NCBI GenBank assembly: GCA_963693315.1
Contig: CAVNZG010000001.1
Location: forward strand, 885,638 to 949,637
Source: Diogma glabrata
Lineage: Eukaryota > Arthropoda > Insecta > Diptera > Cylindrotomidae
Length of the DNA stretch: 64,000 bases
Reading direction: 5' to 3'
The notes beneath the pieces are model-generated. The model was given only the letters and a program-made list of their open reading frames with translations. It was not told where the DNA came from and ran no database searches. A program made the position numbers and the translations under genes. Below are positions 2,895-26,909 of this stretch, piece after piece. How positions within the stretch are numbered: position 1 is the first letter of the stretch; every line of letters begins with the position of its first letter.

Positions 2895-3445
2895 ACGTTT
2901 CTACTTGTCATTTTTGATTCAACCAAAACTACCCATCGATTGCAAATTTATGTAACGTTTCTATATATCAATTTTGGTTCAACAAAATTACACAAGCTTA
3001 CATACCGTTTCTACTTATCATTTTGGACGCAACAAAACTACCCATCGATTGCAAATTTATATAACGTTTCTATATATCAATTTTGATTCAACAAAATTAT
3101 ACAAGTTCATATCCCGTTTCTACTTATCATTTTTGATGCAACAAAATTCTACAAGTTTATATAACGTGTCTACTTATCATTTGTGGATGCAACAAAACTA
3201 CCCATCGATTGTAAATTTATATAACGTTTCTATATATCAATTTTGACTCAACAAAATTATACAAGTTCATATACCGTTTCTACTTATCATTTTTGATGCA
3301 ACCAACTTCTACAAGTTTATATAACGTTGCTACTTATCATTTTGATTCATCAAAGTATACAGCGATTGCAAGTTCATATAACGTTTCTACTCAGCATTTT
3401 GATTCAACAAAATTATCCAACGATTGCAAGTTTATTGAACGTTTC
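2895..3445 (+). repeat. Imperfect minisatellite in element B LTR
   Basis: Alternating modules built on GTTTCTACTTATCATTTT, GATGCAACAAAA and TACAAGTTTATATAAC repeat about every 50-60 bp with substitutions and small length changes. The right LTR has the same array at about 28912-29465. The open frames here are by-products of the repeat. Confidence 0.75.
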
Positions 3446-4655: not shown

Positions 4656-4659
4656 CAGC

Positions 4660-5282
4660 TGTAATATTGGGGAAGGCCGGCGGTTTACAGTACCCGCGAT
4701 TTCTTATAATATATATAATAATACTTAACTTTGAACTAAAAAAATGAACACCGAAATTATATTTATTCCGTTTATTATATTTATTTTATGTTACTCTTTT
4801 AAACCCTTCCTCTCGTAACTAATCACTCACTAACTAAAAATTTAAACTTCCTCTTTATATATCTGAATCTATCAATAATCCTTATTTTTAATTATATTTA
4901 TTTTCAATCCATCTCTTTTCTACAATCATGGAATATTATTGTTTGTGATTTGTTTACTTATATTAAAGAAAAATTTAAAGGTTGTAACCGTAATAAAACA
5001 ATCCATGATTGTAGTTTTCTTATTATAAAATTATGTACAAAACGTTTCATCCTTTTTTACCCCATTTTATTATCTAATCCGTATTTTGTTTCTAAATGAA
5101 TTTTAATAAAATAAAAGGATAATAAATATCGGGCGACAAAGTGGCGGTGATCATATAATTTACATTTTTCAGTCGCCAGTTAGTCGATTGTAATATAAAA
5201 TAAAATAACAAAGATCCATAAAAGAGATCGATTGTTATGAAGCTATCAAACAGGAGGTGAATGCGAAATGTCGCTTGCAACA
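4660..5282 (-). repeat. Element A 3' LTR
   Basis: Read on the minus strand it starts TGTTGCAAGC and ends AATATTACA. It matches 12401-13027 almost base for base but lacks four bases (GATG) present there near 12956. Because the element is on the minus strand this is its 3' LTR. Confidence 0.93.
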
Positions 5283-5297
5283 GAGCTCCCCTTTTTG
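5283..5297 (-). promoter_or_regulatory. Element A polypurine tract
   Basis: On the minus strand CAAAAAGGGGAGCTC directly precedes the 3' LTR (TGTTGC...). A run of A then G touching the 3' LTR is the usual plus-strand primer site. Confidence 0.75.
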
Positions 5298-6323
5298 AGA
5301 ACTTCGCATTTGGTAATCATTTTTAGAGTAAATACTTTCAAAATGGTTACCAAATCGAACCTAAATCTAATATATTGAATTTTATTAAGTACATTTAAGC
5401 TATATTTAATTAAAAATAAAATATTATGAAAACTATGTTATATGTTGAATATGTTGATTGTAGAATATCGGTTGCTAATGTGATTTAGTACACGCCTTGA
5501 ATTGGTTCATTGTAATCTTAATGGTTAGTTGTTGTGGATTCGTACTATATGATTTTGTTAATATTGTTTATTTGGTTTTATTTTTATCCGTTTTCTGTAA
5601 TTTTCTCCAGTAAGTTTGGATTAATATAACAATGGTGATATTACATCAAATAAGTTGTAGTTGTATAATCTCAATTTAAATCTTATAAATATTATTTGCT
5701 TGCCGTCTATTGGTAAATTGAGTTTAACGGTTGGTATGTATGAGGTTTAACTTTTAACTAACTCATTTGTTAAGTCTTATTGTTAAATTTCATAATCAGT
5801 ATTTTATTGAACATCATTTGTTTAGTTGAGTTGAAATGAATATATTTTAGCACACATATATTGTTATTTTTACACTTGCACGTCTTCTTTCTTTGATGTT
5901 TAAATTAGGTTTTATTGTCCCACGTTGTTTTGTTAACATTAATTTTACACAGATTAATTCTTTAACGTTCCTTGCATCTTGTTCTTCGTATTTTGATTTA
6001 TTCGATTTTTTATGATGTACTTTCTGTTTACTAGCTCCATTTCTGCCTGATGTATATAACTTGATATTGAGACTAAACTTGAATTTTTTTTTTTTTTTTA
6101 ATTAATGTGCATGTATATAAAAAAAATTTTATTATTACTATAAATTATGTATTTGTTTTCCTTTTTTTTTATTTATTTTTTTTTTTTACATAATTTCTTT
6201 AATATTATTCTAATCTAGATATTCTTACATACTAAAAATTATTATTATAATATAAAATATTTGAATTATTGTTTTGAAGTTTAAAAATATATTCCAGTAC
6301 ATAATATGAGTTTTGGTTTTTTG
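5298..6323 (-). other. Element A 3' non-coding region
   Basis: About 1 kb, very AT-rich, between the integrase stop and the polypurine tract, with T runs near 6085 and 6165-6187. No long frame on either strand and no env-like protein. Nothing else recognisable. Confidence 0.6.
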
Positions 6324-7716
6324 TTAATTGAAAATATTTCTTAAGCATATTAAAATATCTGTGTTATCTTTTTTATTGTTATTGGAAATAAATTTTTTTA
6401 TTAAATTTTTATGAACTATTTTTTCTTTATTTTTAACCTTAATTTTTATATTTGTTTCAGAAGGAATTTCTATAATTTCATAAGGACCGTCATAGAGTTT
6501 CTGAAACTTAACGCCTTCTCCTTTTTTTGCATTGTTTAACACTAAAACTAAATCACCTACTTCAAATTGAATGTGTTTTACATTTTTATCATAATTATTT
6601 TTTGTTTTTAATTTTTGGATCAGTTGATTTTCCCTTGCATATTGGTATGCCTTTTGGAGCTTATATTTCAACTCGTAAAGGTAATTGTCATAATTATATC
6701 GAACAGATGGTTCGTTTTTTAAAGAATTAGGTATTGTTACTTTGTATCCATACAATAACTCAAATGCAGTGTAGCCCGTGGCTTTTGATTTGGTTGAGTT
6801 CATTGTAAATATACAAAACTCAATCAATTCATCCCAATCATTTAAATTTGCATTTACCACTCCTCTTAGATATTCCTTCATAGTTCTATGAGATCTTTCT
6901 AAAGATCCGTTAGTTTCGGGGTGCCAAGCTGATGCTCGAGTTTTTTTTATATTTAAAAGCTTGCACACGTTTTTGAACAGATCGCTCATAAAATTCGAGC
7001 CTTGATCTGTTAAAACAGTCATATTTTCTATCATACCAAAACGTAAAATTATAGATTTGACGAAAGCTTTTGCTACTGTTTCAGCTTCCTGATTTACAAT
7101 AGGAACTGCTCCGACTAGTTTAGTAAGGTCATCTTGGTATGTTAGAAGATATTTATTTCCGTTTTCAGTTAGTGGCAACGGGCCAACTATATCAAGTGCT
7201 AAACGTTCCATTGGTTTTTTAGCGGTTGTTGTAATTCTCAGGGGAGTTTTATGTTGCCTGCTATACTTACTTTTTTGGCAGTTACTACAATTTTCAACAT
7301 AACTTTTTATTTGTGATTTCATTCCTTTCCATTGATACTTTGCATTGATTCTTGAATACATTCGCTCGATTCCTTGATGTCCACCTGTGAGACAATTATG
7401 GTGGCTTTCGAGAATTGAGTTAATGTCATCTAAGTTCTTCAAAATTATCCTTTCGTCATAGAAAACTAAAATTTTAATATCTGTTTTTTCAAACCCTAAA
7501 TTTATCATATCTAACAATTCATCGAAATTTGATTGTGTAATTAAATTGTCATTCATGTTGATAACTAACTTTCTTATATTATTTTCCTTTAACTGCTGCG
7601 TCCAATCCTTAATATGTTTAATTATTAAATTTATGTCATGCAAATCATCTTTTTTATCTCTGGATATTAAATTTCTTCTAAGCTGAACACTAAGTCTCCT
7701 TTTGTATTCTTTTCCC
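6324..7716 (-). CDS. Element A integrase (pol C-terminal part, shifted frame)
   Basis: Integrase inserts the retrotransposon cDNA into host DNA. The frame is open from about 7716, just after an in-frame TAG, and overlaps the end of the RT/RNase H frame by about 50 bases; the first convenient start-like codon is at 7643. Seen: an HHCC zinc module (HHNCLTGGH then CSNCQ), the catalytic core with LALDIVGPLP (first Asp), LTDQGSNF (second Asp) and HPETNGSLERSH (Glu), and a C-terminal GPY/F-like module (YDGPYEII). Stop at 6324-6326. It is in the -1 frame relative to the upstream part. No canonical slippery heptamer is visible in the overlap, so this is either an inactivating frameshift near 7670-7716 or unusual recoding. 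Confidence 0.9.
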
Positions 7717-10700
7717 TAACCGCAACTTCTGTAGTTGTATCTAAAGCTACTAATTTCAAATAAGTCCTATAATCTTTAATTAAATTTGTATCGCTTGAAT
7801 GGATTATGGTAGGAACAAAATCAACATCTAATTCATTGTCATCTTTAGAGAGTTCTAGTTCTATTGCCCTACGCCTATTGGTTTTTGATCTGGTGACTAT
7901 TTTTATAGATTTCGTGATATCGTCTTGGTTAATATAATTCCTAGATAAGCAGTCTGCTACTACGTTACTTTTACCTTGAACATGTTTGATATCGAAGGAA
8001 TATGAAGATAGTTTCAATTTCCATCTCATCAATCTACTACTAGGATTTTTAATATTCATTAACCACATCAATGGTTTATGGTCTGTTAATATTTCAAAAT
8101 GTACTCCATACAAATACACTTTAAAATACTCAACAGCCCACACAATTGATAGCAATTCTTGTTCTGTAACAGAATAACGCGTTTCAGCGTCCAGAAGATT
8201 TCTACTAGCAAACCCAACTGGTAAATCATCGCCATTTTCATTTATTTGTGAAATAACAGCACCAATAGTTCGCATAGAAGCATCTGTTGTGAGTCTAAAT
8301 GTTTTCGAAAAATCCGGATATTGCAGAATTGGTGCTGATGTTAATTTTTCTTTTAACAACTCTACTGATTTTTCACATTCTTCTGACCATATAAATTTAA
8401 CATTTTTTCTTAGCAATCTGGTTAAACATTTTGTTATTTCTGCATATTTATCGATGTACCTTCTGTAATAGCCGGTCATACCTAAAAACGATTTTATGTT
8501 TTTTGCACTATTGGGAGCTGGAAAATTTAAAATAGATTTAATTTTTTCTGGGTCTGGTTTGATTCCATTTCCAGTTATTAGATGACCTAAATAAACAGTT
8601 TCTGTTTGAAAAAATTTACATTTCTCCGGTTGTAATTTTATGCTATATCTACGCAACCGTGAAAAAACCCTGTTTAGTTTTGCCACATGTTCTTCTACAT
8701 TTTTAGAATAAACAACTATATCGTCTAGATAAACAAAGCAATCGGTACCAGTTAATCCAGTCATTACAGAATTCATTAGCCTCTGAAATGTATGTGATGA
8801 AGATTTAAGCCCCATTGGCATCCTACACCACTCGAAATGTCCAAAATTTGTGGAAAAGGCAGTTTTTTCTCTATCTTTCTCATCTAAAACTATTTGGAAA
8901 TAGCCTGAGGATAAGTCCAATGTTGAAAATATTTGGGCTTTTCCAAGTTGGTCCAAAATGTCTGTTATGTTAGGCAGTGGGAAATTGTCTGAAATTGTTA
9001 TCTCGTTCAATTTCCTGTAGTCGACCACAATTCTCCATTTCTTTGTTCCATCCCTGTTTACCTTTTTCGGAACTAGAAGCAATGGTGAGTTCCAAGGGCT
9101 TTTGCTGTTTCGAATTAGACCGTTATTAAGAAGTTTTTTTATTTGACTTTCGATTTCTTCTCGTTGAGAAATGGGAAGTCTGTACGGTTTAACATTAATC
9201 GGAATACTATTTGGTTGTATCGGTATTTTATGAACTACTGCATCGCATGCTGATAGTATATCATTATCTAAGTAGAATATGTCTGTATATGTTTCCAATA
9301 GATTTCTCAAATTCTCGTTTTCTACTTGATCTGTCTTTAAATCATTAAAAATCTTGTTCTTAATATCTAACACTCTTTCATAATAATTAGTATTGCATTC
9401 GTTGGTTTTAGCTTGTCTCAAATTTGAAATAGAATTAAATGATTTCTTCGGATTATTTCCGTTGTTATTTGTCTCTAAACAATGTTTTATTTCTGTTCTA
9501 TTAAAAATTATATAAATTTGATCACCATATTTGTACTGATCTTGTATGGGTTTTACATTTTCGTCATCAATTTCGTAAATATATTTATCGCTAGCTAAAA
9601 CGCAGTTGTAATGACCTGTTTCGAGTGTTTCACCAAAATGATTTATGAATGAATCTAAATGTAGATTTTTAGCTATACCATTTACTTTTATGGAAATTTC
9701 TTTTGAATAATCAATACTTTTTATAATTTTTTTTCCTTCGCTATTAAATCTTTTTAAGTGAAAACATAAAATTTTTGGAGCTCTTTCAAATGTGTAATTG
9801 ACATATATTGTGTGGATTGCATTACAATTTGAACAAATGGACCCTTCAATTTTGGCTTTCTTAAAAAACTTATTTATGCTATCTTGAATTGATTGACAAT
9901 TATCTATGGACAATGAAATACTATTGAATTCTTCTGTCTGTTCGTTTGAATAGTCGCAGTTAGAGCACGTAATTTTCTTTTTTAGTTTCCCTATAAGATC
10001 GTTTATTTTAATATTTGTTTCGTCATTTAAATTTTGGGAAAAGTACTGAAATAGCTCATGTGTATCTTGTTGTTGACCATTGAATAGGAACGGGAATTTG
10101 TCTCTCATTGTATTGTATAATTCCAATGGTATGATATAACTATTTAGATTATTGAAACTATTTTGGGTTCTTTGCCAAACACATATCAAACACATGCAGT
10201 TACAATCATTTTTAAATTTGTGGGAATATGTTATTTTGATTATTTTTTCGACTTCTGGTAGTCTTAAAAGAATCTGGAATAATGCATTAAAAAAACAAGA
10301 GTTGCCTAAATTTTTAAAACCTTTGTATACACTTGATATGCTGTCGCTAGTAGGTAATTTGGAGGACATCAGTTTGTTTTCTACTTCTATATTATTGTAG
10401 TTACTTTCAGGGTCTTCTAACTTACTTTCCTTCTCCGTTAATTTGTCATCTTGTTTTGGTTTAGTCTTTAATGTACTTTTACTGTATTCTTTAACAAGAA
10501 TATTGTCTAAATCAAATTTAACTCTTTTTTTCTTGGTTTCCGATTTTAAATTATTTGGATTGATATTTATGTTTGAATTATTAAATTTTTCGTTTTTGGT
10601 AGTTTCTCTAAAGCATAAGTTAACATGGTTCTCTATTAAGAAATCTAAGCCTAATAAACCATCATAATCTATGAGAATGTCATCTGATACTATGTAAAAT

Positions 10701-10930
10701 TTCTGTCTAATAAATTTTGCATCTACATGAATATCACCAAAAATAGATCCTAAAGTATCCAGCTTTTGATTTGGTATAACCCCAACAATTGAAACTCTGT
10801 CTTTCTTATTTATCGCTACGTTTTTATTCAAGACTTTTGATTTAATTATACATATATCTGCTCCACTATCAACTAAAAAAACAAGTTTTTGACCAGATTT
10901 TGCTATTGAGCAGTGTGTTGCTAGTTCCAT
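7667..10930 (-). CDS. Element A Pol: aspartic protease - USP deubiquitinase - RT - RNase H
   Basis: 1087 residues from the ATG at 10930, but the frame is open further up to the slippery site at 11044-11050, so Pol is probably made as a Gag-Pol fusion. Domains: retropepsin (VFLVDSGAD, Asp21; GLLGLDF near 91); basic linker (110-200); complete USP/C19 fold (203-477); linker; reverse transcriptase (about 585-760, KWRIVVDYRKLN, FVYLDDIVVYS); RNase H (about 875-1000, LTTDASM, LTDHKPL). Ordinary gypsy Pol has about 100-200 residues between protease and RT; here there is an extra domain of roughly 275. Everything around it is typical Ty3/gypsy. The frame ends at 7667 just before integrase, which is in another frame. 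Frame integrity through USP and RT suggests both were recently functional. Confidence 0.95.
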   Translation of the reverse strand: MELATHCSIAKSGQKLVFLVDSGADICIIKSKVLNKNVAINKKDRVSIVGVIPNQKLDTLGSIFGDIHVDAKFIRQKFYIVSDDILIDYDGLLGLDFLIENHVNLCFRETTKNEKFNNSNININPNNLKSETKKKRVKFDLDNILVKEYSKSTLKTKPKQDDKLTEKESKLEDPESNYNNIEVENKLMSSKLPTSDSISSVYKGFKNLGNSCFFNALFQILLRLPEVEKIIKITYSHKFKNDCNCMCLICVWQRTQNSFNNLNSYIIPLELYNTMRDKFPFLFNGQQQDTHELFQYFSQNLNDETNIKINDLIGKLKKKITCSNCDYSNEQTEEFNSISLSIDNCQSIQDSINKFFKKAKIEGSICSNCNAIHTIYVNYTFERAPKILCFHLKRFNSEGKKIIKSIDYSKEISIKVNGIAKNLHLDSFINHFGETLETGHYNCVLASDKYIYEIDDENVKPIQDQYKYGDQIYIIFNRTEIKHCLETNNNGNNPKKSFNSISNLRQAKTNECNTNYYERVLDIKNKIFNDLKTDQVENENLRNLLETYTDIFYLDNDILSACDAVVHKIPIQPNSIPINVKPYRLPISQREEIESQIKKLLNNGLIRNSKSPWNSPLLLVPKKVNRDGTKKWRIVVDYRKLNEITISDNFPLPNITDILDQLGKAQIFSTLDLSSGYFQIVLDEKDREKTAFSTNFGHFEWCRMPMGLKSSSHTFQRLMNSVMTGLTGTDCFVYLDDIVVYSKNVEEHVAKLNRVFSRLRRYSIKLQPEKCKFFQTETVYLGHLITGNGIKPDPEKIKSILNFPAPNSAKNIKSFLGMTGYYRRYIDKYAEITKCLTRLLRKNVKFIWSEECEKSVELLKEKLTSAPILQYPDFSKTFRLTTDASMRTIGAVISQINENGDDLPVGFASRNLLDAETRYSVTEQELLSIVWAVEYFKVYLYGVHFEILTDHKPLMWLMNIKNPSSRLMRWKLKLSSYSFDIKHVQGKSNVVADCLSRNYINQDDITKSIKIVTRSKTNRRRAIELELSKDDNELDVDFVPTIIHSSDTNLIKDYRTYLKLVALDTTTEVAVREKNTKGDLVFSLEEI
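9500..10324 (-). other. USP (peptidase C19) deubiquitinase domain inside element A pol
   Basis: Residues 203-477 of Pol. Cys box GFKNLGNSCFFNALFQ with the catalytic Cys212 (family form GLxNLGNTCYMNSxLQ); QQQDTHELF matching the family QQDAxEF box; CSNC (322-325) and CSNC (366-369) forming the usual zinc-binding pairs of the fingers; APKILCFHLKRF matching the conserved strand before the His box; TGHYNCVL with catalytic His440; YEIDDENV with Asp455 as the third triad residue. All landmarks are in family order and the size is near the minimum for a USP core. USPs remove ubiquitin from proteins. Which ubiquitinated target matters to a retrotransposon (Gag, the integration complex or a host factor) is unknown. 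Confidence 0.94.
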
Positions 10931-10980
10931 TCCTCTTTGATTAGTGTTTTTAATTGATATATGTTTTATATTTGTTTTAT

Positions 10981-12111
10981 TTATAAGTTGTTTTCTGACA
11001 GTTTGCCTTTCAGGGCTGACCCAGCCAAACTGTCTTCTGTCAAGTTTTTTGATGAGTGGTTACTTACATATGTTCTATTGTATTCTTGTCTGGAGTTCTG
11101 TGGCACGTCTGGAAATCTGTTTTGAGTGTCGTTTGGTCTTCGTTGTCCCATATTTCGATTAAAAGTGGTCCTATTGTTTAGGTTGAAATTAGGGCTATAG
11201 TTACTATTGATGAGTTTATTGTTTTCGTTTGAGTATCTATTTGGACTTTCGTATCGAGGAACAAACGTGTTTGGACTAAATTGAGAGTTTTTGTATCTAT
11301 TTTGTCTAGAGAAACAATTGACATCTGTATGACCTGGTTTTCCACAAAATTTGCAAATGTTGATATTCTCATATCTATGTATGTTTGTGTTTGTCATTTG
11401 AGATGTTTTACTTGTAAAGTTATTAAGATCCTTGACAATTTCGATTGCCTCTGCGAAAGACGCTCTCAAACATGTTGTAATTGCTTGAGATTTTATAGGT
11501 TGATTTAAACCATTGACAAAATATTTCGTAGCTCTTTTACGAACCTCTTCTCTCAAATAACTTAATGTCTCTTTATTTAGTGTATTTGGAAAAGAATCTT
11601 CGATTGCTTTTACTAAAGTTTGGACCTGGTTGCTATACTCTGTAATTGAGGACTTGCCTTGGAAAATATTTTCTAATTCTCTTTCCAGTGTTTCCTTGGA
11701 TTTTGGTGGATTTACGATATTTTTAAGATCTTTCAAGAACTCTAGCCATTTTTCATCTTCTTTATTTTTAGTACTTTTAAACTGTTTATAAACTTCAGAA
11801 GCTTTGCCCGTAAGTTTAAAAATTATTTCACTAAAAAATTCTTTTTTACTGGCTTCGTCCAAGTCTGATCGAAATTTGTCACATCTTATTTCGAAACAGC
11901 ATATTTCGTTTGGATTGCCGTCGTACGAGGGTATTTTTTTATCAAAACTGTCAAAATCAAATTTCGCCATACTTATAGAGTCTACCGTCTTATGTTTTAC
12001 ACTAAAATTACGACCACTACGTGTTTGACTAGGGGATTCTGTATTTTTTTTTGCTTTAACCAACGTCATCAGTTTTTGACGATATTTATTTCTTTTAAAA
12101 ACTACTAGCAA
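10981..12111 (-). CDS. Element A Gag
   Basis: 376 residues. Gag forms the cytoplasmic particle that packages the RNA. The middle part looks like a gypsy capsid (FDSFDKKIPSYDGNPNEI, then an alpha-helical region with LERELENIFQGKSSITEY). One CCHC zinc knuckle, CKFCGKPGHTDVNC, lies near residue 255, followed by an Asn/Arg-rich tail suited to RNA binding. The first ATG is used here; the MAKFDFDSF at residue 48 is an alternative start. The last codons contain the slippery heptamer at 11044-11050, and pol overlaps in the -1 frame. No break in the frame. Confidence 0.9.
   Translation of the reverse strand: MLVVFKRNKYRQKLMTLVKAKKNTESPSQTRSGRNFSVKHKTVDSISMAKFDFDSFDKKIPSYDGNPNEICCFEIRCDKFRSDLDEASKKEFFSEIIFKLTGKASEVYKQFKSTKNKEDEKWLEFLKDLKNIVNPPKSKETLERELENIFQGKSSITEYSNQVQTLVKAIEDSFPNTLNKETLSYLREEVRKRATKYFVNGLNQPIKSQAITTCLRASFAEAIEIVKDLNNFTSKTSQMTNTNIHRYENINICKFCGKPGHTDVNCFSRQNRYKNSQFSPNTFVPRYESPNRYSNENNKLINSNYSPNFNLNNRTTFNRNMGQRRPNDTQNRFPDVPQNSRQEYNRTYVSNHSSKNLTEDSLAGSALKGKLSENNL
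11044..11050 (-). promoter_or_regulatory. -1 frameshift slippery site between element A gag and pol
   Basis: On the minus strand the heptamer A AAA AAC sits in the gag frame (TCA AAA AAC TTG) 21 codons before the gag stop. From it the -1 frame is open without a stop through 10931 into the protease. This is one of the classic X XXY YYZ heptamers. Downstream RNA structure was not assessed. Confidence 0.75.
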
Positions 12112-12400
12112 ACTATTAGGTTATTAGAAAATTTTAGAAACTTACCAATTTATTTTATTTTCCTTTGTGCCGCTTTTAAATTTTCACTCACAATATATTT
12201 TAATCTTCTGTTTTCTTTATTTTGGTCACGATCACATAATAATTACACTATTCAATTTTTATTTTATAAAAGGCACAAATAGTTACACAGAGTTAAGTTT
12301 TACACAAAAAATTTGTTTCATTTTTAGGAACTTCTGGACACCGTAGTAAAAATTTTTTTTTTACTTAATGTCAACAGAAGCCTTTACTTCTGACACCAAC
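12112..12400 (-). promoter_or_regulatory. Element A leader with primer binding site resembling tRNA-Leu
   Basis: On the minus strand, TGGTGTCAGAAGTAAAGG (12398-12381) follows two bases after the 5' LTR. Its first 13 bases fit the complement of an animal tRNA-Leu 3' end (ACTTCTGACACCA), as in the mdg3/micropia group from general knowledge. The remaining leader is AT-rich and non-coding. Confidence 0.7.
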
Positions 12401-13027
12401 TGTAATATTGGGGAAGGCCGGCGGTTTACAGTACCCGCGATTTCTTATAATATATATAATAATACTTAACTTTGAACTAAAAAAATGAACACCGAAATTA
12501 TATTTATTCCGTTTATTATATTTATTTTATGTTACTCTTTTAAACCCTTCCTCTCGTAACTAATCACTCACTAACTAAAAATTTACACTTCCTCTTTATA
12601 TATCTGAATCTATCAATAATCCTTATTTTTAATTATATTTATTTTCAATCCATCTCTTTTCTACAATCATGGAATATTATTGTTTGTGATTTGTTTACTT
12701 ATATTAAAGAAAAATTTAAAGGTTGTAACCGTAATAAAACAATCCATGATTGTAGTTTTCTTATTATAAAATTATGTACAAAACGTTTCATCCTTTTTTA
12801 CCCCATTTTATTATCTAATCCGTATTTTGTTTCTAAATGAATTTTAATAAAATAAAAGGATAATAAATATCGGGCGACAAAGTGGCGGTGATCATATAAT
12901 TTACATTTTTCAGTCGCCAGTTAGTCGATTGTAATATAAAATAAAATAACAAAGGATGATCCATAAAAGAGATCGATTGTTATGAAGCTATCAAACAGGA
13001 GGTGAATGCGAAATGTCGCTTGCAACA
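12401..13027 (-). repeat. Element A 5' LTR
   Basis: 627 bp, TGTTGCAAGC...AATATTACA on the minus strand, followed by the primer site at 12398. It is four bases longer than the other LTR. The right flank repeats the CAGC found at 4656-4659. Confidence 0.93.
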
Positions 13028-13460
13028 CAGCTACTGAGGGAAGATGTCCGCTCAGCTTTTATGCCGTGGTTGACTGGATCCACTCAGGTCATAGCACCTC
13101 GCCCGTATGTGTTGGTGGTGTGGATCGCAGTTGGCAGGTGTTGGTGATCGAATGGTGGTCCAGAGGATTTATCTTCTGGCCATCCCGTCAACACTTGTCA
13201 GCTGGGTGAGATCCCATCAGCACATACCCCACCTTATTCCTTTCCCACCCTACTTTTTCCCATCCTTTTACATCCCCTCTTCTTCCCTCTTCCTTTGCCT
13301 TTCCGATCCTTTTAACGTAGCTTATTTTCACTTTTCATTGGTCCCAAATAACAAAACAAAATTCCATATACAAACTAAATAGAAAGAACGGCGATCGGCA
13401 CCTCCAACCCTTGAGTGATGGACACCCCGTGGTTGGATCCGACTTTCCTCCACCCGCCAA

Positions 13461-14664: not shown

Positions 14665-15390
14665 ATGTCTGCTGTTGATAAGATTGACGTTCTGGACAGG
14701 TCCAGCTCTTGTGCAGTCTGTCAACAAGAAATAGTGCCGGCCGACGTAAAACTTCTCACTCGGTGTAACCACCTCTTTCATGACATCTGCCTCAATGACT
14801 GGTTGTTGCAGAATAGCACCTACCCAATTTGTCGAGCCGCTTGTGAGCGTGCAGAATTACAAAGGTTACCCCGAGGGATGGATAAAACTAATGATACAGT
14901 GGTACCACCACCACCGCGACCGGTGACCCGCTCTATTACCGCAGGTTGGCAACGTCGTCCTAGTATCGGAAATCAACACTCTTCTACTCCCTTGGCAAAC
15001 CGCCTTCCACGATCTAGACTCGCCGATGAAGTGCGAGTGAATATAGCTCAACGATCTCCCATACATGGAGCCGCGGCAACGGAAGATCATGGTTTTCAGG
15101 AAGCTGTAAATGCTCATATCGATCAGGAAATTTCAAGGATTAATCACTCAATGATGCAATCACGTGCTCCGGCACCTGAAGTATTGTTACCCCTAGCACA
15201 TAATGCAGTATCACCCACCACACCGCGCCATCCGTCGGTTCATTCCGGAAATTATCCACCAGTAAATGCGTATGTACGGAATAACGTGCCGGTACCACCA
15301 ATGTTTGCTGAACCTCCTCCTGCTCTTGCTCCGGCTAGAATACGAACACATCTCGATCAGCACTCCACAACGTTAGAAATTGGAACGTAA
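14665..15390 (+). pseudogene. Element B gag, N-terminal part with RING-H2 finger
   Basis: 241 residues from ATG to a premature TAA. Residues 16-56 have the C3H2C3 spacing of a RING-H2 finger: C16-x2-C19-x14-C34-x-H36-x2-H39-x2-C42 with a Trp at 46, then YPIC where the family has CPxC. So the seventh zinc ligand is Tyr53 instead of Cys, a TGC/TGT to TAC change. RING fingers of this type recruit ubiquitin-conjugating enzymes. The rest is Pro-rich and disordered. The following frame (NVTFSGRPDGLDVEAFIFRI) is the start of a Gag capsid and joins this protein if a frameshift near 15360-15385 is allowed, so the RING is very likely the N-terminus of Gag rather than a separate protein. Confidence 0.8.
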
Positions 15391-16223
15391 CGTTCTCAGG
15401 CAGACCCGATGGTCTGGATGTTGAAGCGTTCATCTTCAGAATAGAGCGGCTGACAGAGATGTGCTTAAATAGCGATTTTACTATTGTCACTCGTTGTCTG
15501 TACCTGTTGTTCACAGATCAAGCGGCTGATTGGTTCTGGAGATATTTTCGCCAGAACCGACAGCTTATTTGGACTGACTTGTGTCATGCTCTGCGAATAG
15601 AATTTCAGGACAGGCAGACGGACGAAGAGGTAAAGGAGCGGATGAGGGCCAGGAAACAACGGCCCAATGAATTGTTTGACGAATTCTTACAATCAATTTA
15701 TCGACTAGGCGATAAACTACGAGTACCGATGCTGGATGTGGAGTTGTTCTCCTTAATTCGCAACAACTTACGATTGGAAATTAGAAGGGAGCTGCTATAT
15801 GTTACCATTTATGGACTGGAACATCTGCGCCAGCTCTGCCGAGACCGCGAGAAGCTATGGGCCGAGTCTATAACCAGACCACGCGATTATAACATTAGAC
15901 CTTCTAGACCGGTGTCAGAAGTAGACTTGGTTAGTGAATTCTCACAAATTCAAATTAGCGAAATGCCAACGGAATCGTTACCAATCACATCCAACGAACT
16001 CGCGGCAATACAGCCCGCCCCTAACATGAGACGAATAACCAGTTCAACTATTTGTTGGAACTGCAAACGACCTGGACATCGTTGGCACGATTGTCGTGAA
16101 TCACAGCGTTTGTTTTGTTGGGGATGTGGGAAGGACGATGTGTTATGTCCTAATTGGACGATGTGTTATGCCAGAATCCCACCACCTTTTCTCGCTCCCA
16201 GGACCTGTCTTAGATTCATCTAA
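15382..16223 (+). pseudogene. Element B gag, capsid and nucleocapsid part
   Basis: The frame opens with NVTFSGRPDGLDVEAFIF, the usual N-terminal signature of Ty3/gypsy capsid domains; the first ATG in this frame is at 15459 but cannot be the true start. Capsid features continue (DQAADWFWRY, RKQRPNELFDEFLQSI). Near the end there is a CCHC knuckle, CWNCKRPGHRWHDC, and a second Cys-rich stretch, CWGCGKDDVLC, that looks like a damaged second knuckle. It overlaps pol, which is in the +1 frame relative to this one; with the upstream frameshift as well, the ancestral gag-pol arrangement cannot be read from this copy. Confidence 0.85.
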
Positions 16224-19200
16224 GACCAAATTTAATTTGTCTCCTGATCCTACGAATATTTCATCTACCAATAACTTACCAGTTCATGATACACCGTTGA
16301 ACCGAGCTTCAACATCCACTTTCGTAGAACGCCCGTCGAACACCGCTTTTGGTACCATGGTACCCACTCATGATCCTAAGGTGAACTTATGGAAACGTAC
16401 ACTTGCTCAGGCGGAACCACCACCATTATGTACGCAACTCAAAACATTCCAACAAAGATTGAAAGAATACTTGAAAATACGCTCAAACATATTTGTCGAT
16501 TCATTGTCATCTTTGAAACCGCCATCGCGCTCTGCGCTCCGTTCTCGTATTTATTGGCAACAACGACATTTGTTTAAAACTAAAACCATTTCTTCTATTG
16601 TGAAATTGGCCAACGATGTGAGATCTTATGCCACCGTGGCAATATTGGGTAAACAACATACTGGACTGTTGGATAGTGGAGCGTCTTTGACTGTAATTGG
16701 TGGTGATTTTGCTAAAGAGATCGTGCAAACTCCAGACCTTTTGACTTACTCATCTGCAGTAGTTCGTACCGCCGATGGCCAAAGACAGAAGATTTTGGGA
16801 TTTGTAAAAACAAAGATTTCATTTATGAACCAAGTCAGAACCCTGGACGTCTTCATTATCCCGTCTTTAACTCAAAATCTATATCTAGGTATAGATTTCT
16901 TTAACGCTTTTGGTTTGTTTAACCCGATATTTAACTTACCTACATTTTCGACTACGGAGTCAGGTATTTCAGAATTGTCTATGGACGATCAAGCACGTCT
17001 ACAAAACACTATTCAGCTTCTACCATCATTTTCAAAAATGGGTCTGGGCCGAACGCATTTGATAGAACATGTTATTGATGTGGGGACGGCCGCTCCCATC
17101 AAACAACGTCACTACCCGATTTCGCCCGCCATTGAGAGACTGATGGGAGAAGAACTGGATAGAATGTTATCTCTGGGTATTATAGAGGTTTCAAACAGTC
17201 CATGGTCAAGTCCTGTGGTCTTAATTCGCAAACCTGGGAAGAATCGTCTTTGTTTGGATAGTAGAAAGGTCAATACAGTTACTAAAAAGGATGCTTACCC
17301 CCTTCCACAGATAGATGGAATCTTGAGTCGTCTGCCACAGAGTAATTTCATTTCCAGTTTGGATCTGAAAGACGCTTTCTGGCAGATACCTCTAGAAAAA
17401 CACTCCCGAGAGAAAACTGCTTTTACGGTCCCTGGGCGGCCATTGTATCAGTTCGTAAGAATGCCTTTCGGACTGTGCAATGCGCCGCAAACAATGACCA
17501 AATTGATGGACCAAGTAATTCCCCCACATCTCAAGTCGTGCGTCTTCGTATACTTGGATGATCTTCTAATAGTTACAGATACCTTTGAGGCCCATCTGAA
17601 ACTGTTAGAAGATATCTCCCAGTGTCTTAGACGTGCGAACTTGACGATAAACGTGGAAAAAAGTAAGTTTCTCTTGCCGGATGTAAAATATTTGGGATAT
17701 GTAGTGGGAGGTGGTACGTTGAAAATCGATCCTGATAAAACTCAAGCTATTTCTGAATTTCCTACACCGCGTACGTCCAAACAGATTCGACGATTCCTGG
17801 GTATGGCGGGTTATTATCGCCGTTTTATATCTGATTTCTCTGCTATGTCCTCTCCAATATCAGATTTGTTGAAGAAAAATTCTAATAAATTCGTATGGAC
17901 ACCCGAAGCTGAAATAGCATTTATAAATCTCAAAAATGCTCTCATATCAGCACCAGTCCTCATAAACCCCGACTATACTAAACCTTTTACTCTCCAGTGC
18001 GACGCTAGTAATGACGGTATAGGCTGTGTATTACTTCAGTGTGACATGGACGGTATGGAACATCCCATAGCGTACATGTCCAAGAAACTAAATTCTGCGC
18101 AACGCAATTACTCCACTAGTGAGAAAGAGTGTCTAGCCGTCGTACTGGGAGTAAAAAAATTTAGAGCGTATGTCGAGGGTCAGGCCTTTAAGATCATAAC
18201 TGACCATGCTTCAATAAAATGGTTAATGCAACAAAAAGACCTTTCTGGTCGATTGGCTCGTTGGAGCTTGAAATTGCAGGGTTATGTCTTTGATATTGAG
18301 TACCGGAAAGGAAATTTAAACATAGTTCCAGACACTCTATCAAGACGTGACTCTGTTGACGTCATATCTGAATTATGTCCAGTGCCTGAATTAGATCTTA
18401 ATTCCCCTTTCTTCAACACTTCTCGATATTTGGAGTTGGTAAATCTGGTTACCGAAGCAGACGGTACATTGCCTGATCTGAAAGTAATTTCTGGTCGGGT
18501 TTATAAACGGTTGACTTGTCTGGATCTTGATATTCCTTCAGAGGGTGAGGTTTGGAAATTGTGGTTACCTGAGGAATACACTGACGAGTGTATTGCAAGG
18601 GCCCACAATCCTCCTACCTCATCTCATGGAGGTCTAGCAAGAACCCTGTATAATATTCGTAAATTTTACTATTGGCCTCGTATGTATACCCAGGTTAAAT
18701 CGTACCTAGGAAATTGTAAGACCTGCAAAGAAATTAAAGCAACTAATGTTCCACTTCGTGCTCTCATGGTGTCTCAGATGAAAACAGAACGAATCGGTCA
18801 GCGATTGTATATCGATATTCTTGGCCCTTATCCTCGTTCAAAGGCCGGGAATATCGCTATTCTTGTAGTATTAGACCATGTTACGAAATATCCATTTTTG
18901 TTTCCTTTACGGAAGCTAACTGCTGAACCAATTTGTCATCTGTTGGCTACCAATGTCTTTCACATATTTGGTTGTCCCGAAGTTATTGTGTCCGATAATG
19001 GGACCCAATTCAAATCAAAACAGTTTGCAGATTTCTTGGCGAAGCACGGAGTGAAACACACATTACTGGCCTTATATTCACCTCAAGCTAATGCTTCTGA
19101 ACGAGTAAATAGGAGTGTTTTATCTGGTATTCGAGCCTATTTAAAGGAGGAGCATTCTAAATGGGATCTGCACTTGAGCGAGATCGCTTGTGCACTACGT

Positions 19201-19629
19201 TGTTCCCTGCACCAAACACTTAAATGTTCCCCATATTACGCAATGTTTGGAATACCTATGGTGACTCATGGTTCGTCATATGAATTGCTGAGACGACTGA
19301 ATAGTCTTCATGAACCAGGTGAAACGATTCTGCGACCTGATTATCTTAACAAGATTCGATTACGAATTCTAGATCTAACTGCCGAAGCATTTGTCAAGAG
19401 TGCTGAAAGATACAATTTACGAGCTCGAGTAACCTTGTTTAAACCAGGTGATACGGTGTTCCGAAGGAACTTTATTTTGAGTGATGCCGGTAAGAAATTG
19501 TCTGCTAAACTTGCACAGAAGTTTATTGAGACCAGAGTAATAAGGTTGGTAGGTAGCGCTGCCTACGAACTGGAAGACCTGGTTTCTAAACGTAGAGGTG
19601 TTTATCATTCCAAGGACATTCGCGCCTAA
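16096..19629 (+). CDS. Element B Pol: protease, RT, RNase H, integrase
   Basis: 1177 residues, one open frame. The first roughly 30 residues overlap gag in another frame; protein-like sequence begins near residue 33. Seen in order: retropepsin GLLDSGASLTVIG (Asp193) and LYLGIDFF; RT with RLCLDSRKVNTVT, LDLKDAFWQIP and the catalytic FVYLDDLLIV; RNase H with LQCDASNDGIG and ITDHASIKWL; integrase with an HHCC-like module (HGG then CKTCKE), LYIDILGPYP, VSDNGTQF and PQANASERVNR. It ends with a short GD-VFRR C-terminal domain at a TAA (19627-19629). Catalytic residues are all present, so Pol may still be functional although gag is broken. B2 (61495-64000) is a close relative. Confidence 0.93.
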   Translation: MNHSVCFVGDVGRTMCYVLIGRCVMPESHHLFSLPGPVLDSSKTKFNLSPDPTNISSTNNLPVHDTPLNRASTSTFVERPSNTAFGTMVPTHDPKVNLWKRTLAQAEPPPLCTQLKTFQQRLKEYLKIRSNIFVDSLSSLKPPSRSALRSRIYWQQRHLFKTKTISSIVKLANDVRSYATVAILGKQHTGLLDSGASLTVIGGDFAKEIVQTPDLLTYSSAVVRTADGQRQKILGFVKTKISFMNQVRTLDVFIIPSLTQNLYLGIDFFNAFGLFNPIFNLPTFSTTESGISELSMDDQARLQNTIQLLPSFSKMGLGRTHLIEHVIDVGTAAPIKQRHYPISPAIERLMGEELDRMLSLGIIEVSNSPWSSPVVLIRKPGKNRLCLDSRKVNTVTKKDAYPLPQIDGILSRLPQSNFISSLDLKDAFWQIPLEKHSREKTAFTVPGRPLYQFVRMPFGLCNAPQTMTKLMDQVIPPHLKSCVFVYLDDLLIVTDTFEAHLKLLEDISQCLRRANLTINVEKSKFLLPDVKYLGYVVGGGTLKIDPDKTQAISEFPTPRTSKQIRRFLGMAGYYRRFISDFSAMSSPISDLLKKNSNKFVWTPEAEIAFINLKNALISAPVLINPDYTKPFTLQCDASNDGIGCVLLQCDMDGMEHPIAYMSKKLNSAQRNYSTSEKECLAVVLGVKKFRAYVEGQAFKIITDHASIKWLMQQKDLSGRLARWSLKLQGYVFDIEYRKGNLNIVPDTLSRRDSVDVISELCPVPELDLNSPFFNTSRYLELVNLVTEADGTLPDLKVISGRVYKRLTCLDLDIPSEGEVWKLWLPEEYTDECIARAHNPPTSSHGGLARTLYNIRKFYYWPRMYTQVKSYLGNCKTCKEIKATNVPLRALMVSQMKTERIGQRLYIDILGPYPRSKAGNIAILVVLDHVTKYPFLFPLRKLTAEPICHLLATNVFHIFGCPEVIVSDNGTQFKSKQFADFLAKHGVKHTLLALYSPQANASERVNRSVLSGIRAYLKEEHSKWDLHLSEIACALRCSLHQTLKCSPYYAMFGIPMVTHGSSYELLRRLNSLHEPGETILRPDYLNKIRLRILDLTAEAFVKSAERYNLRARVTLFKPGDTVFRRNFILSDAGKKLSAKLAQKFIETRVIRLVGSAAYELEDLVSKRRGVYHSKDIRA

Positions 19630-20970: not shown

Positions 20971-21597
20971 TGTAATGACCCGTTATCATACATATTGTAT
21001 CCATTACAAAAATCTATACCAAATTTCACAATTTCTTAACGAAATAATGAAGGGTGAATAAACTTATACGTTTAGTGCTGTTTATTTAATATTTCGAAAT
21101 AGAAATATTAATTAAATAGCAACATTACGATTGTTCAACAATTATGCAAAATCGCATAATTGCTGTACATTGAAAATGTAAATGAACGATGGGTTTTTCA
21201 CCTTTGATTGTTTTGTAGGGGAATTGATTTGTACTTTAAATTAATATGATTGGCTTAACGAATTTTAAAACAAAATTATTTTAATAACGGTTCATTACGC
21301 TCCCTTCCAAAAAAATAATGAAAACTTAACTTATTGTCTGTTAGTTAAAATTGAGTTGTGTAAAAGACTTTACAGAGAAAGGTTTTACAAATTGAAAATA
21401 AATCCAGGATTCAGAAATCAATCCGTAACCGTCAAACTTTATTAAATTTAACCAATAAATAAAATTAATTAAAATTGAAGTTGTCAAATGTTATTGTGTT
21501 TTATTAAATAAAAGGTGCCGTGATATTGAAATTAAAAGTTGTCGTGCGTAGTTCAATTATATTTGTTTGTGGACTCCTACAGTAGTTAGGTACCACA
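20971..21597 (+). repeat. Element C 5' LTR
   Basis: Starts TGTAATGACCCG and ends GTACCACA; repeated at 26283-26909 with one visible difference (AAATCCAGG here, AAATTCAGG there). Confidence 0.93.
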
Positions 21598-21599
21598 TT

Positions 21600-21617
21600 T
21601 GGCGCAGCCGGAAACAG
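21600..21617 (+). promoter_or_regulatory. Element C primer binding site resembling tRNA-Ser
   Basis: TGGCGCAGCCGG follows two bases after the 5' LTR. It matches the TGGCGCAGTCGG type used by 17.6/297-like gypsy elements (tRNA-Ser) with one mismatch. The assignment rests on memory of those elements. Confidence 0.65.
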
Positions 21618-21898
21618 CCACGACTGGCTTGTTTGTTTAAATAAAACAGTGCAAAAACAATCAAAAAAAGTGCAAACACAGTGAACGAATACATTGAACA
21701 ATTTTTGAAATTTTCGATAAATCATTAAGCAATCGAAATTTAAACACAGTGATCAATGTTGGCAATTTTCGATATCTAAAAATTCTCAAACACAATTTAA
21801 ACAAATCAAATATATCAAATATATCAAATATATCAAACATAAAGAAATAGAGTTATACATATGTCAACCAGCTGCCTGCAAATTCACAAATCAAGAAA

Positions 21899-22105
21899 GT
21901 GAAACAAACATCGAATACAACTAATGATCAAGAGCCCACCAGTGGAGAAAAACAGACCATTAATACATCCACACCAACATTAACAACATTATCAGCAGTA
22001 AAAACATTTAGTAGACAGAAGTCATCAAAAGCAACATCAACGGAATCTTCAACAATTAAAGTAGATGTTAAACTGGAAGTTAAACGAAGGGTGAGTCACA
22101 TTTAA
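21899..22105 (+). CDS. Small Thr/Ser-rich ORF upstream of element C gag
   Basis: 68 residues, rich in Thr and Ser, basic at the end, no recognised domain. It is in the same frame as the downstream gag-like ORF (22154). Its end contains AAGG|GTGAGTCAC, a good splice donor, and AG acceptors occur at 22138 and 22149, so it might be spliced to the larger ORF; the implied intron (about 49-60 bases) would be near the fly minimum. Equally it could be untranslated leader. Confidence 0.35.
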   Translation: MKQTSNTTNDQEPTSGEKQTINTSTPTLTTLSAVKTFSRQKSSKATSTESSTIKVDVKLEVKRRVSHI

Positions 22106-22153
22106 ATAATTTTAGTTTTAGAAATTGTTAAGGTTTAGCTAATATTAAGAAAA

Positions 22154-24193
22154 ATGGAAAACTGTTTAATAAATAATGATGATTTTTTTTTGATTACGGA
22201 TACTTTAAACAGTATCCCAATAATTTCGAGCAATAATGCTAACCAACGCGAATTAGAATACTTTTTAGAAACGTGTGAAAAAGCATATGTCAATTTACCA
22301 CCAAATTTAAAAACGAATTTACTATCGCGAATTTGGTCTCGTGTAAGAGGAGACGCATATTATCGAATAAAAAATCAAAAATTCAATTCATTTAACGAGC
22401 TAACAGAATTTTTTAAAAAAACATTTGGATTTTTGGAAGAAACTTTTGAGCCAATTGATAATTTAAAATCAAACTCGCAAACCGATCTCTTTGTTAAACG
22501 ATTAAACGAAATTTCTCAAAATTTTTCAATAAAAAATAAAAAATCACCCTCAGAGGAACAACTTATTATAGATCCGTTGTTCCAAGCAGATTTAACAATA
22601 AAAGAGCTTACACAGGAAAACGATAGGTTGCTTAGATTGAACTCTACCTTTATAGCAGAGAAAATTAAGGATAAACAAGAGATTTGTTTCCTTACTCAAG
22701 ACAATAATAAACATAAAAATGAGCTTAGTATTTTATCATATTCTAAAGAGAAATTACAACACTCTACCGAAGAGTTAATAAACAGCTTGGCGGTTGCAAA
22801 TTTAGAATTAAAAAACGCTAAAACCATTAACAAAGCACTCCGCCAAAAAATCGAACAACTTAATACAGAAAAACTAATTCTAGCAATAGATCTAGACAGA
22901 ACAACAAAAAACTTGTCAAACCAAAGTGTATTATACACAAAATTAGAAACAGAATTCATTGAATTACAGAATAGAAATAAAATTCTCGGCAAAGATTTGG
23001 TTGAAACCATTCAAAACCATCCCAATCCGTCTGAAAAAGATAATGTGTACGAAAATGTTTTACCGAATAACTTTAGCTTAAATCAAAATATCGAAGATCA
23101 AGCACTTACTTTTCAACTGCATACTCTAGCAGATAACATACCACCGAGAGATTTATATTCCGAAGTCTTAAAAGTAAGTATAGCCAAGAACGAAGATAGT
23201 GCAATAATAACAAATTACTGCGATAGCAAACAAACAAAACATGTTAATATAATCAAAAAATCCACCAATTCTAAGCCGCTGTTTTCTAGTATAAAATCAA
23301 ATAACAATTTCTATGATAAAAAATTGTGCAAAACAAACATTATTGCAAAACAAAATAATGCTTTATCGTCAAAATTAGGATCTCCAGTGAACTCACACAT
23401 TAATATTATTAGCTCACCTAATTTAATACTTTACTCAAATATCAAACACAATCAAAAACAAATATTTTCAAGGTCGAGATCTAAAGAAAATAACAATAGA
23501 ATTCTGGTTACTGAAAACAAAACAGTCAAAAATAAGACAAACATTCGTCATAACAAGAAGAAACGAGTAGCACCAACAAAAATAAAAAAATGCATTAAAC
23601 CGATTGAAACCTCCCAAAAACAGAACGCTAAGACCGAACCACTTAAAATTCCAACCAATAGAAATTATAAAAAGAACAAACTATACCCAAAAAACTATCG
23701 CAACCTCACAAAAACCAAGACATGGATTGAGAATGGCCGAATTAGGAAAACTAAGCAAACAAAACAACTTTCATCTCGTTTAAATAGCAAAACGATAATA
23801 AATGGTCAAAAATTGTTAATGTTCTTTATTACTTTTATTTGCAACAATATTTCACAAAATTTTAATAGCGGTAATCGGATAAACAACACAAATCAATTTG
23901 GAATTAGACAATCATTACGTTCGCTCTACAAAAATTTAAATAAACAAGAATATATATTCTCATCCGAAACCGTGAAACCAAGCTTTAGTCAAATTTTTCG
24001 TTTAACATTTAAAGGAAGTTTGATATTAATTGGCCAACACATTAGTAGACTCAAAAAATTTGTCCAATCGAAATTCAATACAACAAAAATCCTATCACGC
24101 ACCAGTAATGTTATTTTCTTATTGAAATATTGCAAAGATAATCTAGAAAGAAAATTCGGAAACATACAGTTCATTTTCAAATTTCCTAATTAA
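22154..24193 (+). CDS. Element C Gag-like protein with coiled coil and basic tail
   Basis: 679 residues. Residues 1-110 look like the capsid start of 17.6/gypsy-type Gag: a helical region with LEYFLETCEKAYVNLPP, then LLSRIWSRVRGDAYYRI and a stretch ending in FNELTEFFKKTFGF. Residues about 150-300 are rich in Leu, Glu, Lys and Asn with heptad character (ELTQENDRLLRLNSTF, LRQKIEQLNTEKLIL), a likely coiled coil. From about 400 on the protein is strongly basic (RHNKKKRVAPTKIKKC). No zinc knuckle, no protease. Some Gags of errantivirus type also lack knuckles and use basic regions for RNA. The frame is intact over 2 kb, which argues that it is or was translated. Confidence 0.75.
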   Translation: MENCLINNDDFFLITDTLNSIPIISSNNANQRELEYFLETCEKAYVNLPPNLKTNLLSRIWSRVRGDAYYRIKNQKFNSFNELTEFFKKTFGFLEETFEPIDNLKSNSQTDLFVKRLNEISQNFSIKNKKSPSEEQLIIDPLFQADLTIKELTQENDRLLRLNSTFIAEKIKDKQEICFLTQDNNKHKNELSILSYSKEKLQHSTEELINSLAVANLELKNAKTINKALRQKIEQLNTEKLILAIDLDRTTKNLSNQSVLYTKLETEFIELQNRNKILGKDLVETIQNHPNPSEKDNVYENVLPNNFSLNQNIEDQALTFQLHTLADNIPPRDLYSEVLKVSIAKNEDSAIITNYCDSKQTKHVNIIKKSTNSKPLFSSIKSNNNFYDKKLCKTNIIAKQNNALSSKLGSPVNSHINIISSPNLILYSNIKHNQKQIFSRSRSKENNNRILVTENKTVKNKTNIRHNKKKRVAPTKIKKCIKPIETSQKQNAKTEPLKIPTNRNYKKNKLYPKNYRNLTKTKTWIENGRIRKTKQTKQLSSRLNSKTIINGQKLLMFFITFICNNISQNFNSGNRINNTNQFGIRQSLRSLYKNLNKQEYIFSSETVKPSFSQIFRLTFKGSLILIGQHISRLKKFVQSKFNTTKILSRTSNVIFLLKYCKDNLERKFGNIQFIFKFPN

Positions 24194-26282
<2,089 letters not shown>

Positions 26283-26909
26283 TGTAATGACCCGTTATCA
26301 TACATATTGTATCCATTACAAAAATCTATACCAAATTTCACAATTTCTTAACGAAATAATGAAGGGTGAATAAACTTATACGTTTAGTGCTGTTTATTTA
26401 ATATTTCGAAATAGAAATATTAATTAAATAGCAACATTACGATTGTTCAACAATTATGCAAAATCGCATAATTGCTGTACATTGAAAATGTAAATGAACG
26501 ATGGGTTTTTCACCTTTGATTGTTTTGTAGGGGAATTGATTTGTACTTTAAATTAATATGATTGGCTTAACGAATTTTAAAACAAAATTATTTTAATAAC
26601 GGTTCATTACGCTCCCTTCCAAAAAAATAATGAAAACTTAACTTATTGTCTGTTAGTTAAAATTGAGTTGTGTAAAAGACTTTACAGAGAAAGGTTTTAC
26701 AAATTGAAAATAAATTCAGGATTCAGAAATCAATCCGTAACCGTCAAACTTTATTAAATTTAACCAATAAATAAAATTAATTAAAATTGAAGTTGTCAAA
26801 TGTTATTGTGTTTTATTAAATAAAAGGTGCCGTGATATTGAAATTAAAAGTTGTCGTGCGTAGTTCAATTATATTTGTTTGTGGACTCCTACAGTAGTTA
26901 GGTACCACA
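26283..26909 (+). repeat. Element C 3' LTR
   Basis: 627 bp copy of 20971-21597; followed by CGTT, the second half of the target duplication, and then the resumed B LTR (ATTGAACTGATC). Confidence 0.93.

Follow-up and report, generated by a model that had tools for sequence, protein, structure and literature searches.

The window analysed here, a stretch of 64,000 nucleotides from Diogma glabrata, holds on its minus strand a single Ty3/gypsy long terminal repeat (LTR) retrotransposon (4660-13027), in whose Pol a ubiquitin-specific protease (USP; peptidase C19, Pfam UCH) lies between the retropepsin (PR) and the reverse transcriptase (RT). A preliminary description of this locus had put forward the order retropepsin, USP, RT and RNase H in one open frame, and Pfam matches to PF00077, PF00443, RVT_1 and RNase H bear it out. 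Thus, a USP of cellular type with its catalytic triad intact sits inside a recently mobile gypsy element. That this anatomy and its recurrence in other copies are real is practically beyond doubt.

Apart from the USP, the element is built in the usual way. The order PR-RT-RNaseH-integrase (IN), with the rve integrase last, is that of Ty3/gypsy elements, and the few RT matches that bear an element name (most bear none) are Pol proteins of the Gypsy, 412 or 17.6 type. The two LTRs of the window copy are near-identical, with one mismatch and one 4-nt gap. A putative primer-binding site may be tRNA-Leu-like. The open frame of the preliminary description holds from PR through RNase H, but the ATG at 10930 is probably not its start: pol opens at 11062, overlapping gag in the -1 frame relative to it. 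Nor does it include the integrase, as the pol frame of this copy stops ahead of it and the integrase is open from 7718 to 6326 in a different frame. Integrase is in frame with RT in five related copies (L039-L043), which makes the broken frame a trait of the copy and not of the family. Between integrase and 3' LTR of the window copy, no open reading frame (ORF) of at least 150 codons was found that could represent an envelope gene.

Table 1. Features of the USP-bearing gypsy element and its flanks (window positions)
Feature	Position	Strand	Basis or remark
Target-site duplication CAGC, left	4656..4659	.	read from LTR flanks
3' LTR, 623 nt	4660..5282	-	pairs with 12401-13027
Putative polypurine tract, adjoins 3' LTR	5283..5296	-	by eye
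Integrase, H2C2 + rve, in other frame than pol	6326..7718	-	PF17921 E 2.8e-18; PF00665 E 4.1e-10
RNase H	8000..8314	-	PF17917 E 6.3e-37
Reverse transcriptase	8582..9070	-	RVT_1 PF00078 E 1.1e-38
USP (C19/UCH) domain	9533..10321	-	PF00443 E 2.7e-31
Retropepsin with DSG active site	10616..10903	-	PF00077 E 2e-6; DSG from translation
gag ORF, 376 aa	10981..12111	-	PF03732 E 7.7e-10
Predicted stem-loop, 9 nt 3' of heptamer	10997..11034	-	-18.8 kcal/mol
Slippery heptamer A AAA AAC, read in the gag frame; -1 shift to pol	11044..11050	-	identical in 6/6 other family-A copies
Putative primer-binding site, abuts 5' LTR	12384..12400	-	sequence
5' LTR, 627 nt	12401..13027	-	pairs with 4660-5282
Target-site duplication CAGC, right	13028..13031	.	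read from LTR flanks

The assignment of the domain to the USPs follows from profile, residues and predicted fold. Its UCH match reaches 109.5 bits against a curated cut-off of 23.9, and the top match by sequence in the PDB is USP36 (E 4.6e-18). The Cys and His boxes are present, with Cys212 encoded at 10295-10297 and His440 at 9611-9613; Asp455 is likewise in place, as are the QQQDTHE motif, two CxxC pairs and the FHLKRF strand. An AlphaFold2 model, made from an alignment of ten USPs, has a predicted local distance difference test score (pLDDT) of 87.2 and a predicted template modelling (TM) score of 0.86. Compared with the PDB by Foldseek, the model matches 330 chains at E <= 0.001; USP36 again comes first (E 1.4e-25, query TM 0.86), followed by USP12, USP1, USP21, USP2 and USP46, and the best 50 of the 330 matches are all USP or Ubp8 entries. 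The model thus shows the USP fold that marks peptidase C19. Profile search, residue numbering and predicted structure are all in good agreement with the preliminary description.

The ten USPs represent four families of the same genome and six database proteins; they were selected by their USP match, so that unrecognisable USPs would be missed. Despite pairwise identities of 20-39%, they share ten invariant positions (Asn, Cys, Asp, Glu, four zinc Cys, His and Asp). In USP7 and USP2, a Cys, a His and an Asp or Asn form the catalytic triad, and an Asn contributes to the oxyanion hole. All ten representatives have the triad and the oxyanion Asn five residues before the Cys, the third catalytic position being Asp in eight and Asn in two. 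The triad is also intact in all seven family-A copies that carry the domain, so that the loss of the triad in most copies, which the preliminary description saw as a danger to its reading, is not observed. It is very probable that the gypsy USP is an active deubiquitinase.

The genome (1.33 Gb in 1788 contigs) was screened with the USP piece, which gave 27 rows, or 24 places once three split rows were merged. Eighteen of these are element copies that carry a USP, found on large and small contigs alike. They fall into four families: A, the window's own, with seven copies that are 97-100% identical in the USP search, B and C with five copies each, and D with one. Two family C copies stand in tandem, 7.6 kb apart, and the C1068 copy was counted once despite being split by another element. 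The RT of this clade adjoins the USP in all 18 copies, and a recognised retropepsin lies upstream of it in 17, none being seen for L017. Some copies have decayed: a single stop interrupts the USP match in L031 and in L034, and a one-base gap does so in L044. Others carry long pol frames, namely L039-L043 of family A (1572-1581 codons, integrase included, with L039 stopping nine codons early) and the family D copy L035 (1373 codons), whose LTR pieces are 98.98% alike. One further family-A place matches only the last 28 query residues, past the USP, and five other places have no PR or RT match in the fetched flanks and were taken by eye as host USP genes.

A search of the same genome with the RT scored 104 of 29646 candidates, so that its counts are lower bounds; four family-B copies with a broken RT are missing from the scored rows. 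Fifteen places reach at least 62% identity, 14 of which are USP-bearing copies. The remaining 89 places have at most 59% identity, and none of them occurs in the USP search. The fifteenth place, C4:8297806, makes one of eight family-A copies found by RT that lacks the USP. There (L045, 377-5181; G000:C4:8295000-8304500), RT and integrase in a 1064-codon frame are 99% identical to the window's family, and the surrounding repeats of about 780 nt are 97% alike without a match to the family-A LTRs.

All seven family-A copies have two LTRs and a target-site duplication within the 4-6 bp typical of Ty3/gypsy elements; the duplications are 4 bp long and distinct from copy to copy. Besides the window copy, the LTR pairs differ at 0 (L039), 1 (L040), 3 (L043), 3 (L044), 0 (L042) and 0 (L041) positions over 622-629 nt, which indicates recent mobility. 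Between the window family and the other families, the domains differ strongly in conservation. RT and IN retain 60-69% and 51-72% identity, respectively (matches of at least 180 residues), while identity is 32-42% in PR, 25-33% in the USP (full-length matches) and 26-27% in Gag (families C and D). An independent capture, argued from a low RT identity between the families, was considered and dismissed in view of the 60-69% just given.

The USP is probably expressed by a programmed frameshift. The stretch with heptamer and predicted stem-loop is the same in the six other family-A copies, and in families B, C and D, one copy per family likewise has A AAA AAC in the gag frame with a predicted stem-loop after it. 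With these signals ahead of pol, the USP should be made as part of a Gag-Pol fusion and would therefore be expected inside the particle.

Relatives were found in protein databases as well. Among 120 proteins listed for the RT, six carry PF00443 (P0008, P0009, P0010, P0014, P0016 and P0017), each in the order UCH-RT-RNaseH-IN, and a second RT search, with P0009 as query, again listed these six in a set of 120. Upstream of UCH, the protease model matches at E <= 0.01 in P0009, P0014 and P0017; P0010 and P0016 show the DTG motif alone, and P0008 neither. The preliminary description had suggested a search for further copies with the order protease-USP-RT, and such copies exist both in this genome and beyond it, although a few relatives are without the domain. 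The distance from PR to RT is 584-797 residues in the five USP-bearing proteins measured and 590 in the window. It is 354 in P0011 and 318 in P0012, which leaves little room for a USP; still, the distance is an imperfect marker, since P0020 (602) and P0006 (942) have no UCH match. A degenerate USP in P0011 and P0012 was ruled out, as a profile of the ten USPs matched only the same six of the 120 proteins. P0008 and P0014 carry a C-terminal G-patch domain after the integrase (residues 1591-1615 and 1687-1710, respectively), and the search with P0009 also returned P0168 and P0179, gypsy-type Pol proteins with a Macro domain (PF01661). Collections of phages, plasmids and viral contigs gave no match to P0001.

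In an RT tree of 60 rows, built by a quick method, all ten USP rows fall together with P0011 and P0012 into a clade of 12, which has a Shimodaira-Hasegawa-like approximate likelihood ratio (SH-aLRT) support of 99. The presence of the USP takes two changes on this tree, which does not tell gain from loss; one gain with one or two losses would fit. The sub-groups P0008 + P0014 and P0010 + P0016 + P0017 are recovered in the RT tree and again in the USP tree. The latter (18 rows, many long branches) separates elements from hosts weakly (70/51). The host sequence nearest to the elements by path, without support, is an exon that we assigned to USP36 by eye and that covers the C-terminal part only; the 8 kb that precede L046 yielded no N-terminal exon of the host USP36-like gene. 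A search of full-length proteins with the window USP, run with a word filter that is strict for 25% identity, missed all six elements and returned three USPs of plants.

From these data, we propose that a Ty3/gypsy lineage took the catalytic domain of a cellular USP, nearest to USP36 in profile and fold, into its Pol between protease and RT. Most simply, this would have been a single event that preceded the split of the families, the majority of which retained the domain. Made in Gag-Pol via the -1 frameshift, the USP would be packaged with RT and integrase, and the retropepsin probably frees it by cuts in the variable linkers on either side. Inside the particle, it would most likely remove ubiquitin from Gag/Pol or from the pre-integration complex, which would thereby avoid proteasomal clearance, close to the protective role put forward in the preliminary description. 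According to the title of a 1996 paper by Menees and Sandmeyer, cited in PMC7175516 and PMC10998562, the formation of Ty3 particles in yeast is subject to a ubiquitin-dependent block. We give the explanation as a whole about an even chance (roughly 0.5); that self-protection is the main use of the USP falls just short of that. More tentatively, the lineage may be an old and still mobile one with a virion-type deubiquitinase as a standing Pol subunit that counters a ubiquitin-based host block, its fast change reflecting an arms race against the ubiquitin ligases of the host or against the proteasome route.

Several observations weigh against this proposal. The USP is missing from P0011 and P0012, which belong to the clade or to its margin, and is thus dispensable in some lineages. 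Likewise, the repeats at C4:8297806 enclose a family-A RT and IN but neither gag nor PR nor USP. The weak split of elements and hosts in the USP tree leaves room for several captures. As for expression, the shuffle comparison (z -2.63; 4 of 200 shuffles fold equally well) was made for the stem-loop of the window alone. Selection on the domain, suggested in the preliminary description, agrees with the intact triad and the ratio of non-synonymous to synonymous substitution rates (dN/dS) among the seven family-A copies, which is 0.26 in the USP, 0.24 in RT-RNaseH, 0.22 in gag and 0.13 in PR, with 0.68 and 0.96 in the linkers. These values, however, derive from few changes (of 287 USP codons, 5 with silent changes only and 9 with amino-acid changes) and are no proof of selection by themselves.

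Instead of shielding the element's own proteins, the USP might act on host proteins, for example on the ubiquitin of histones where the element integrates or on a restriction factor of the host. It diverges between families about as fast as Gag, as expected for a surface that tracks a changing partner, and its best match in profile and fold is USP36, whose fly orthologue is presumably a histone H2B deubiquitinase. But the fast divergence is common to Gag and PR and needs no host partner, and USP12/46, Ubp8 and USP2 match nearly as well as USP36, so that we regard this explanation as rather unlikely. The substrate could also be another ubiquitin-like modifier, in keeping with the top structural match, a USP36 solved with Fubi, and with a further match to USP18 with ISG15. 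Ubiquitin is the usual substrate of the USP family, however, and complexes with ubiquitin make up most of the entries with a named ligand among the best 50 of the 330 structural matches, which renders a different modifier improbable.

A role as second processing protease of the polyprotein, also proposed in the preliminary description, is less probable again. The USP does occupy the stretch from PR to RT, in which cleavage is expected, but USPs cleave behind the tail of ubiquitin, and the five gag/pol pieces gave no Pfam match to a ubiquitin-like domain; moreover, a retropepsin with DSG is present, and P0011 and P0012 manage without a USP. The idea of a mere passenger, be it a private insertion, a contaminant or a piece of host sequence in decay, could appeal to the out-of-frame integrase of the window copy. 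It is hardly credible in the face of 18 copies in four families and six database proteins, with open frames and intact triads, and we discarded an artefact or private insertion on the strength of these copies and proteins. Self-protection stays our preferred use of the USP, but the data favour it over an action on host proteins with little force.

Compared with known systems, the element shares LTRs, the 4-bp duplication, gag, a -1 pol frame and PR-RT-RNaseH-IN with ordinary Ty3/gypsy elements (Metaviridae), many of which, with 54-59% RT identity to it, share its genome. Ordinary elements differ in that they have no USP match and a PR-to-RT distance of 263-302 residues in 48 of 64 measured. 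Cellular USP36, USP12/46 and Ubp8 have the same triad and zinc fingers, and the same fold as the predicted model, but identity in the structural matches is only about 20-23%, and the USP of the element is a part of Pol. Among viral replicons, giant DNA viruses have USPs of similar fold, found in BFVD; these are proteins of DNA viruses and not part of a retroelement polyprotein, and no retroelement is named among the 50 BFVD matches listed.

Transposases of the transposase_11 type have neither RT nor LTRs. One such protein of Trichomonas is reported, in the passages available of PMC2836005, to carry a C19 domain; it resembles our element in the fusion of C19 to a mobile-element enzyme, but that enzyme is a DNA transposase. 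The corresponding passages of PMC2836005 and PMC6431247 describe Ginger1 DNA transposons and OTU-bearing Helitrons, in which a recombinase or replication protein is accompanied by a deubiquitinase or a cysteine protease of the Ulp1 type. They differ in being DNA transposons and in using the OTU and Ulp1 families, and the Ginger1 domain stands at the C-terminus of the transposase. The Burro giant elements of planarians are gypsy elements too, for which PMC6431247 names ubiquitination-linked domains (MATH/TRAF, BIR and RING-like motifs) and not a USP. The terms ubiquitin, OTU, USP, C19 and Ulp1 are absent from the searched text of PMC6338049, and titles, abstract openings and selected passages of the open-access literature contained no report of a USP in an LTR retrotransposon. 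As far as these sources go, OTU and Ulp1 in DNA transposons and C19 in one Trichomonas transposase are known, and C19 in an LTR element is new.

With C19, the set of ubiquitin-pathway proteases that mobile elements have acquired grows beyond OTU and Ulp1. Because one residue decides USP activity, a USP embedded in Pol makes it testable whether animal-type retrotransposons answer a ubiquitin block with an enzyme of their own. On the practical side, automatic annotation may mislabel the genes of such elements as host USPs.

Other elements lie close by in the window. On the plus strand, a 241-aa ORF with a RING-H2 finger (14665-15390; PF13639, E 2.8e-9) stands directly upstream of the gag/pol of another gypsy element (15459-19629); the sole repeat pair found around the two is 56 nt long and 82% alike (14089 and 20091). 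A stretch of 5.9 kb (20971-26909) between 627-nt direct repeats that are 99.8% alike looks like a young LTR element; its 679-aa ORF (22154-24193) has no Pfam match at 0.01. Tandem repeats of a 160-nt unit occur at 3021-3340 and at 28930-29358.
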